Shown piece by piece: positions 18,614 through 59,360 of a stretch of DNA of 64,000 nt (the stretch's first letter is position 1; each line of letters starts with the position of its first letter). A program made the position numbers and the translations under genes. Location: the NCBI GenBank assembly GCA_903882935.1, contig CAIRZB010000058.1, forward strand, positions 1 through 64,000, written 5' to 3'. Source of the stretch: an uncultured Parafilimonas sp. Its GTDB lineage: Bacteria > Bacteroidota > Bacteroidia > Chitinophagales > Chitinophagaceae. Below the pieces are notes generated by a model. The model had not been told where the DNA came from and searched no databases. It saw nothing but the letters and a program-made list of their open reading frames with translations.

Positions 18614-18642
18614 TAATTGTAAAAAATCGATAAATAATGTTT

Positions 18643-18696
18643 TGCCCCCTTTTGGGGCTACCCGGTAAGCTTACCGGGTAGCCCCAAAAGGGGGCA
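18643..18696. repeat. 54-bp perfect palindrome
   Basis: Two 27-base arms meet at 18669/18670 with no spacer and no mismatch, centred on AAGCTT. The arms contain GGGGCTACC and AGCCCC, the same core as the palindromic repeats beside the RAYT gene at 58.1-58.9 kb, here as two copies head to head. It sits between the convergent mdh and T9SS genes and could also stop transcription from either side. Confidence 0.7.
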
Positions 18697-18776
18697 TTGT
18701 TAAATTTATTTCCTGTTTCTACAAATAGTTAGTGGCTAAGGCCCATTCGCACAACAATTTCGTTTCTGTCCATCAC

Positions 18777-58068: not shown

Positions 58069-58117
58069 GGGCGTATATGGCGAGGCGTGCAATTTGTTGC
58101 ATGTTATAGGAAAAGGG

Positions 58118-58860
58118 GTAGCCCCTACGGGGCAAATGGTGTTGCCGTCTTTTTGCTACAAATAGGTAGCCCCTAAAGGGGCAAATAAATTGAGTAAATG
58201 ATTGCCTTTGGGGCTAGTTATTTCTACAACCCTATTAGCGTTTATGGGGGGTGTGGAAAATAAAGAGTTACCTAATTTGTATGACCTTTTAGAAGCTCCC
58301 TTTTTGTAGAAAAATATAGGTTGGATTTTATATGCCCCATTAGGGGCTACCTGTTTGTAGACGAAGTATTTGGATATATTATGCCCCATCGGGGCTACCT
58401 ATTTGTACAAAAAACGAAGAATTGTCTTTTATATGCCCCATTTAGGGGCTACCTGTTTGTAGAAGAATTATTTGGATATAATATGCCCCATCGGGGCTAC
58501 CTATTTTTAGAAGAATTATTTGGATATATTTTGCCCCATTTAGAGGATACCTATTTGTACAAAAAAGGAAGAATTGGATTTTATATGCCCCATTTTGGGG
58601 GCTACCTGTTTGTAGAAGAAAATATTTGGATATATAATGCCCCATCAGGGGCTACCTATTTGTAGAAAAAAAGAAGAATTGGATTTTATATGCCCCATTT
58701 AGGGGCTACCAGTTTGTAGAAGAATTATTTGGATATATTATGCCCCATCGGGGCTACCTATTTGTAGAAAAAAGGAAGGATTAAATTTTATATGCCCCAT
58801 CGGGGCTACCTATTTCTAGAAGAATTATTTGGATATATTATGCCCCATTAGGGGCTACCC
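58118..58860. repeat. RAYT-associated palindromic repeat array
   Basis: Eleven copies of TGCCCC...GGGGCTACC(T)..TTTGTAGAA run in the same direction at about 58333, 58381, 58433, 58483, 58532, 58584, 58637, 58690, 58741, 58792 and 58841, spaced 48-53 bp. Each has a GCCCC/GGGGC hairpin. Two more copies at 58119-58134 and 58156-58186 point the other way, and degenerate ones lie at 58202-58228 and about 58286-58316. Linkers alternate between a TTGGATTTTATA type and an ATTATTTGGATATATTA type. The array ends 36 bp before a Y1-transposase gene. Open frames across it are repeat artefacts. Confidence 0.9.
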
Positions 58861-58895
58861 AAAAAGGCCAACATGTAATTGCAAAAAAATATGCT

Positions 58896-59360
58896 ATGCC
58901 CAATACGTACACCCAATTATACATCCATTGTGTATTTGCTGTTAAGTACCGCGCCGCTGTAATTCAGCCGCATTGGGAAGATATACTTCATAAATATATT
59001 ACTGGCATTCTGCAGAACAACGGCCATAAAATGTTGGCCATCAATTCAGTACCCGACCATTTGCATCTGTTCATCGGGCTAAACCCCAATCAGTCAATCT
59101 CTGACATGATGCGGCTTGTAAAGGGTGACAGTTCTGAATTTGTAAATAAAGAAAACTTCTCACGGGCAAAGTTCCAGTGGCAGGATGGGTATGGTGCATT
59201 CAGTAACAGCAAGTCGCAAATAGATAAAGTGGTAAAATATATTGTACACCAAAAGGCACACCACCATAAAAAAACGTTCAGGGAAGAATACATCGCGATG
59301 CTTGATGACTATGGCGTAGAATATAATGACAAGTATATTTTTCACGATTTATTGGATTGA
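58896..59360 (+). CDS. RAYT / IS200-like Y1 transposase
   Basis: A 154-residue single-domain HUH endonuclease of the Y1 (TnpA, IS200/IS605) superfamily. The HUH motif is in NSVPDHLHLFIGL (His-Leu-His), and the conserved tyrosine lies in KVVKYIVHQKAHH near residue 115. The N-terminal MPNTYTQLYIHCVFAVKYR and the end DYGVEYNDKYIF match the Bacteroidota group. Its position beside a long palindrome array and lack of a TnpB partner make it a REP-associated (RAYT) protein, which nicks at hairpin motifs. The gene overlaps nothing and is followed by an acetylesterase gene. Confidence 0.88.
   Translation: MPNTYTQLYIHCVFAVKYRAAVIQPHWEDILHKYITGILQNNGHKMLAINSVPDHLHLFIGLNPNQSISDMMRLVKGDSSEFVNKENFSRAKFQWQDGYGAFSNSKSQIDKVVKYIVHQKAHHHKKTFREEYIAMLDDYGVEYNDKYIFHDLLD

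Follow-up and report, generated by a model that had tools for sequence, protein, structure and literature searches.

Hairpin array and adjacent Y1 gene

The window analysed here is a stretch of 64,000 nucleotides from an uncultured Parafilimonas sp. (contig CAIRZB010000058.1). It carries a Y1/HUH transposase-like gene of 154 amino acids on the plus strand (58896-59360), preceded by an array of short hairpins between positions 58117 and 58859. The array includes 12 exact GCCCC-N(2-7)-GGGGC palindromes, each with TACC before or after it, and a thirteenth, degenerate unit (58537-58551), in agreement with the preliminary description, in which at least 13 units with a GCCCC/GGGGC stem and a TACC flank had been counted. 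Together with two more at 18644-18695, the whole window has 14 exact palindromes, compared with an expectation of 0.93 and a maximum of four in 100 dinucleotide shuffles. With the end of the last unit at 58859 and the ATG of the gene at 58896, array and gene are separated by 36 bp, as had been described.

Of the 12 exact units, ten point the same way and the two leftmost (58117 and 58165) are inverted. The array has a period of about 102 bp, made up of alternating spacings of about 48 and 54 bp. On the minus strand, which is the canonical one, the unit reads CTACAAA-YR-GGTA-GCCCC-loop-GGGGC; the window units bear a GTAG tag, the final G of which doubles as the first base of the stem. According to the orientation map of the window locus (L031), the main array (58334-58859, minus strand) consists of 11 same-orientation units at 48-54 bp spacing, which start at 58334, 58383, 58435, 58485, 58537 (the degenerate one), 58587, 58639, 58692, 58742, 58794 and 58842, and whose canonical sequence is CTACAAAYRGGTA-GCCCC-loop-GGGGC. 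The innermost unit (58842-58859, minus strand), 36 bp from the gene, is of a kind here called B, with TACCC but without the TTTGTAG tail, as is also the case in relatives. The array opens on the left with an inverted B-kind unit (GGTAGCCCCTACGGGGC; 58117-58133, plus strand) and an inverted A-kind unit (CTACAAATAGGTAGCCCCTAAAGGGGC; 58156-58182, plus strand), and between these and the direct units the sequence reads as degenerate hairpin remnants (58183-58333, unstranded), with traces of units at about 58200-58310. Part of the array can also be read as a 114-amino-acid open frame (58321-58665, plus strand) composed of repeats of PHRGYLFVEELFGY; we regard it as spurious, though gene finders might annotate it.

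Classification of the Y1 protein

The window protein matches the Pfam family Y1_Tnp (PF01797) with 101 bits (E = 6e-29). Its HUH motif is D54-H55-L-H57 (DHLH), followed by W95-Q96, the catalytic Y115, Q119 and H122-H123; in an alignment of 30 homologues, H55, H57, W95, Q96, Y115, Q119, H122 and H123 are invariant. The Y---NP motif of class 2 enzymes is absent, and the window protein has Y115-I-V-H-Q119 and then HH. Its score is below the cut-off of the NCBIfam REP transposase model (REP_Tyr_transpos; 34.8 against 80 bits) and above that of the IS200 model NF033573 (77.5 against 55 bits). An AlphaFold2 model of the protein (mean pLDDT 90) is nearest to the TnpA proteins of ISDra2 and IS608, with ISDra2 TnpA as the best match (E = 1.5e-9), whereas the TnpA-REP structure 4er8 comes last among the significant matches (E = 2.2e-6). 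The gene is present in a single copy, and three other full-length Y1 genes in the genome encode proteins 35-51% identical to it, each adjoining another type of palindrome.

Quentin et al. (2018, PMC6006769) defined the TnpA-Y1 subclass 1.2 by the signature YIKNQKEHH, a length of about 148 amino acids, the motifs DHuH, WQ and Y---Q--HH, a low genomic copy number, and an occurrence in Bacteroidetes and Cyanobacteria. The window protein agrees with this in its 154 amino acids, its diverged single copies and its named homologues, nearly all of which are from Bacteroidota. Judged by sequence, it is a class 1, subclass 1.2 TnpA, that is, a predicted HUH/Y1 nuclease encoded by a single-copy gene, not an insertion sequence. 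The preliminary description had proposed a RAYT with its REP repeats. In the strict, class 2 sense a RAYT is rejected, given the missing Y---NP, the score under the REP model cut-off and a fold closer to IS200/IS605 TnpA than to TnpA-REP; the other half of that proposal, namely that the hairpins belong with the enzyme, holds, for the same architecture recurs in other genera and there are further copies in the genome.

Hairpins at homologous loci

For comparison, 41 homologous loci were selected by protein alone, with one genome per species used for the scan; they include Mucilaginibacter, Runella, Chitinophagaceae and Bacteroidales. Hairpins were defined as GC-rich with a stem of at least 5 bp and a loop of 3-4 nt, and were counted within 350 bp of the gene. 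Their density there is 5.17 per kb, about tenfold that in shuffled sequence (0.51 per kb), and falls to 0.69 per kb at 1.5-2.9 kb from the gene. When only non-ORF DNA is considered, the values are 7.03 and 1.61 per kb. At least two hairpins are found near the gene in 33 of the 41 loci, and none or hardly any at the family members L095, L097, L098 and L058-L060. The same architecture flanks homologous genes in other genera, and the unrelated repeats in close relatives that would have spoken against the preliminary description are not what is seen.

The hairpins share a common design, consisting of a CTAYAAA box, a foot of about 6 nt, a 5-bp stem and a loop of 3-4 nt. The stem sequence varies by species (GCCCC, GCCGC, GCTCC, GCACC and ACGCC) while its pairing is kept. 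All five stem pairs have changed on both sides among 30 units, a count that is partly circular, as these units were pre-selected for pairing. In a test that was free of such selection, a 5-bp stem at a nearly fixed offset followed 114 of 260 CTAYAAA words, compared with 15 of 479 control words. A tail of the TTTRTAG type lies 4-6 nt from a hairpin in about nine tenths of the tail matches.

Seventeen loci with ACC-type feet have a readable orientation, and in these the recurrent layout is >A >B tnpA <B <A, mirrored about the gene, in which the A unit has the TTTGTAG tail and the B unit lacks it. All 51 neighboring pairs that are 44-58 bp apart in these loci are direct, and inverted pairs are always farther apart and lie either across the gene or in the center of composite elements. 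In the family as a whole, the distances between hairpin centers show a sharp peak at 48-55 bp. Long arrays exist elsewhere too, in M. dorajii (49-bp steps) and others. Downstream of the window gene no hairpins were found, and its own arrangement is therefore incomplete relative to the mirrored plan.

Association of foot type, motif and gene

Foot types (ACC or AAAG) were assigned by the author ahead of tree building. On the protein tree, foot type requires four changes, and all 14 members of the clade that includes the window protein have ACC. A Chitinophagaceae homologue has GCATTTTGGTAG in common with the C12 paralogue, and G002 has a GTG foot in common with the C1 paralogue; the GTAG tag is not kept in sister clades, which carry other feet. 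The exact motif CTACAAAYRGGTAGC is present in 10 of the 12 genomes that have a window-type gene (mean 14.6 copies) and in seven of the 83 others (mean 0.2 copies), a co-occurrence with a Fisher p of 1e-7 when genomes are counted regardless of kinship and copies at the Y1 loci are included.

A Runella protein is 73% identical to the window protein, a relationship that crosses orders, and the closest sampled relatives of the window genome have no close copy of the gene (best 63%). Taken together, these two comparisons of protein sequences suggest that the gene was transferred horizontally along with a repeat type that matches it. The congener G001 has pgm (88% identical) next to the same sialate-esterase-like gene as in the window, and neither array nor Y1 gene lies between the two; the difference could be a gain in one genome or a loss in the other. 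The site between pgm and the esterase gene at which the array would have been inserted cannot be fixed to a single base, since the intergenic DNA of G001 has diverged too far.

Dispersed copies and their mobility

Genome-wide numbers were obtained by pattern and BLAST-type searches. The hairpin-TACC sequence has 25 exact matches in the window genome, 12 of them in the array and 13 outside it, and the array is thus not alone in the genome. Nine dispersed, near-full composite elements of four hairpins each are present, 78-100% identical to the query copy, and seven of them overlap no ORF of at least 110 amino acids. The many genomic copies that the preliminary description had anticipated are therefore found in part: in the window genome itself the dispersed copies are few and eroded, and numbers are high only in some Mucilaginibacter genomes, which have 32-65 exact copies of the motif. 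One dispersed copy lies within the window (18614-18742, plus strand), with two B units head to head (18644-18662 and 18677-18695), a degenerate A' unit at about 18717-18742 and an eroded left A unit. The palindrome at 18643-18696, in which the array core had already been recognized in head-to-head form, proves to be the core of this longer element. The order of the units is A-B-B'-A' in the window genome and UBA5151, and B'-A'-A-B in M. dorajii.

Many of the copies in M. dorajii and UBA5151 are situated in elements of about 249 bp, each with four hairpins and bounded by the terminal inverted repeat (TIR) CAGGGAAATCGCTTTTAA (L132-L144; L159-L161). Flanking 10-bp duplications matching at eight or more of the ten positions accompany 12 of 17 such elements examined, compared with none of 272 control pairings. 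The TIR has 64 matches in M. dorajii, 36 in UBA5151 and 21 in M. flavus; the Mucilaginibacter TIR is CAGGGAAATCGC. Imperfect TIR-like sequence (GGGTGCAAtCCAAATTG) is found at the ends of the dispersed elements in the window genome, which have no clear duplications. The TIR of the 249-bp elements was sought at the Y1 loci, including the window array, and is absent there. A TIR combined with a 10-bp duplication is a signature typical of DDE transposases, not of HUH enzymes. Since many elements have both and the Y1 loci lack that TIR, some of the dispersal is clearly that of TIR-bounded miniature transposons, for which a different enzyme was probably responsible, and the copies have spread by a mixed route. 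The array had been said to look like a nursery. As a source of the dispersed copies it is no more than putative, since many of the elements whose recent dispersal is recognizable moved as TIR-bounded units with 10-bp duplications and not in a manner known for RAYTs.

It might be argued from these elements that the hairpins belong to miniature transposons (MITEs) with TIRs, which a DDE transposase moves, and that the Y1 gene is merely nearby or was captured. The 249-bp elements with their duplications, the numbers of TIR matches in three genomes and the TIR-like ends in the window genome would all fit. We consider this improbable, however, because hairpins are present at homologous Y1 loci without these TIRs, the foot type tracks the Y1 protein clade, the layout is mirrored about the Y1 gene, and the same 50-bp spacing is seen in distant Y1 clades with different hairpins.

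Comparison with known systems

Like the class 2 TnpA-REP (RAYT) enzymes with their REPs and BIMEs (PMC6006769), the present system has a single-copy Y1 HUH gene with flanking palindromes that are also present elsewhere in the genome, mostly as intergenic dispersed copies, a distinct palindrome type for each paralogue and, in the window clade, a GTAG tag. It differs from them in its class 1 protein, with Y---Q--HH in place of Y---NP, its 5-bp stem, a GTAG that is not family-wide and an extra CTAYAAA box that begins 13 nt before the stem. Neighboring units here are direct at about 50 bp, in contrast to BIMEs, in which they alternate. GTAG-tagged palindromes are likewise known from the GTAG REPs and TIRtrons of Di Nocera et al. 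(2013, PMC3733652), where REP dimers within longer palindromes or TIRs are on record; GTAG repeats are listed there for Proteobacteria, Cyanobacteria, Chloroflexi and PVC, not for Bacteroidetes. In the available part of PMC8266576, the Marinomonas REPtron Mb (group 3 RAYT) is described as having perfect 5-bp stems, as here, and foot-guided cleavage at CT or CA was demonstrated for it; its protein, unlike the present one, is of class 2, and that part of the source does not mention a CTAYAAA box.

Single-stranded hairpins accompanied by a 5' guide are the substrates of IS200/IS605 TnpA enzymes. The elements IS608 and ISDra2 are the nearest in fold and sequence to the window system and likewise have hairpin substrates, with a foot guiding cleavage in IS608. 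They differ in that there is no multi-copy mobile gene here and in that the hairpins are arrayed and mirrored and do not mark a left and a right end.

With the subclass 1.2 proteins of Quentin et al. (2018) the window protein shares motifs, length, low copy number and phylum. Table 1 of that study (PMC6006769) gives "no" for REPs in this subclass, whose members are generally without IS200-type terminal structures. The REP search used there accepted only palindromes with GT[AG]G and a basal stem no shorter than 7 bp, by which 5-bp hairpins would be missed. It appears that an enzyme branch published as REP-less does have partner repeats. We found no description of an association between such hairpins and subclass 1.2 in the open-licence literature, Mucilaginibacter palindromes with transposases included, and an earlier description is possible.

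Interpretation and possible mechanism

The best explanation, and in our judgment a likely one, is that an IS200-type (subclass 1.2) enzyme operates a REP-like system, with the hairpins as its candidate substrate. The association between hairpins and gene is well supported; the enzymatic step is one that we infer. The substrate would be a single-stranded hairpin made up of CTAYAAA, a foot of about 6 nt, a 5-bp GC stem and a loop of 3-4 nt, and in the full arrangement the gene would stand between mirrored doublets, each with its A and B units 50 bp apart. TnpA, probably a dimer like the TnpA of IS608 and ISDra2, would bind two neighboring hairpins on single-stranded DNA, so that two direct hairpins 50 nt apart might be held in the manner of two IS ends. 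According to PMC8266576, RAYTs cut at CT (or CA) near the REP, and in at least one case the tag picks the site. By analogy with RAYTs and IS200/IS605, the foot is likely to act as a guide, and the nick would fall between the conserved C and T of CTAC, the likely cleavage site. Cutting and rejoining between neighbors of the same orientation would add or remove units of about 50 nt and could in this way give rise to arrays. Hairpin quartets are also spread more widely where they have become part of miniature elements with TIRs, on which a different transposase probably acts. Mobilization by TnpA is putative, since the window genome has only a few, eroded dispersed copies and two of its other Y1 paralogues have repeats that are essentially confined to the vicinity of their genes.

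A bolder version, toward which we lean much less, is that these loci represent a distinct class of REP. A probably dimeric IS200-class TnpA would act on the direct doublet with a ruler of about 50 nt, a gene-free mini-IS would be excised and re-inserted into arrays, and hairpins would have merged with TIR-bounded DDE elements, which would bring two unrelated chemistries into each element.

It is very improbable that the hairpins are a passive tandem repeat, or a set of terminators or attenuators, grown by replication slippage and unrelated to enzyme activity. The tandem period of about 50 bp and the possible terminator or attenuator role of GC hairpins agree with this, whereas a CTAYAAA box at a fixed distance, a covarying stem, a clade-specific foot and mirror symmetry are not terminator features; slippage could nevertheless be a means of array growth once an array has formed. 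Least probable of all is an ordinary IS200-like insertion sequence with its hairpin ends multiplied by slippage, since the IS200 equivalog score over the cut-off, the ISDra2 and IS608 folds and the subterminal hairpins that belong to IS200 elements are outweighed by copy number and layout, on which we rejected it: only one copy of the gene is present, the remaining full-length Y1 genes of the genome are too diverged to be IS copies, and the hairpins, which are numerous and mirrored, are also dispersed to places that lack the gene.

If the REP-like system run by a subclass 1.2 enzyme is accepted, it would provide a candidate substrate for a whole HUH subclass that was classed without REPs, and would bring the class 1 TnpA of Bacteroidota into the range of REP-type systems. 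Proteins that are near to IS200 transposases and yet seemingly immobile bear on the question whether domesticated, repeat-tending Y1 enzymes have had more than one origin. The CTAYAAA box, the clade-specific foot and the direct 50-bp spacing, moreover, give simple, testable predictions on guide-directed nicking.

Other Y1 loci

Two of the paralogues in the window genome, at C1:2770-4027 (L027) and C12:74150-75105 (L028), are also of subclass 1.2 and have palindromic repeats of their own, and a search of the window genome for dispersed copies of these repeats returned essentially gene-adjacent ones only. The fourth Y1 gene (C70:67153-67593, L029; 35% identical) has GTTGAACCCC...GGGGTTC palindromes, yet another type, on both sides. 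In two separate Bacteroidales bins, UBA3743 and UBA3844 (L089 and L101), an identical Y1 protein is accompanied by near-identical flanks with ACGTC/GACGT hairpins. An especially dense palindrome cluster, with 11 hairpins within 350 bp of the gene, surrounds a homologue (38% identical) in the planctomycete Rhodopirellula (L099), and the hairpin association may thus reach beyond Bacteroidota.
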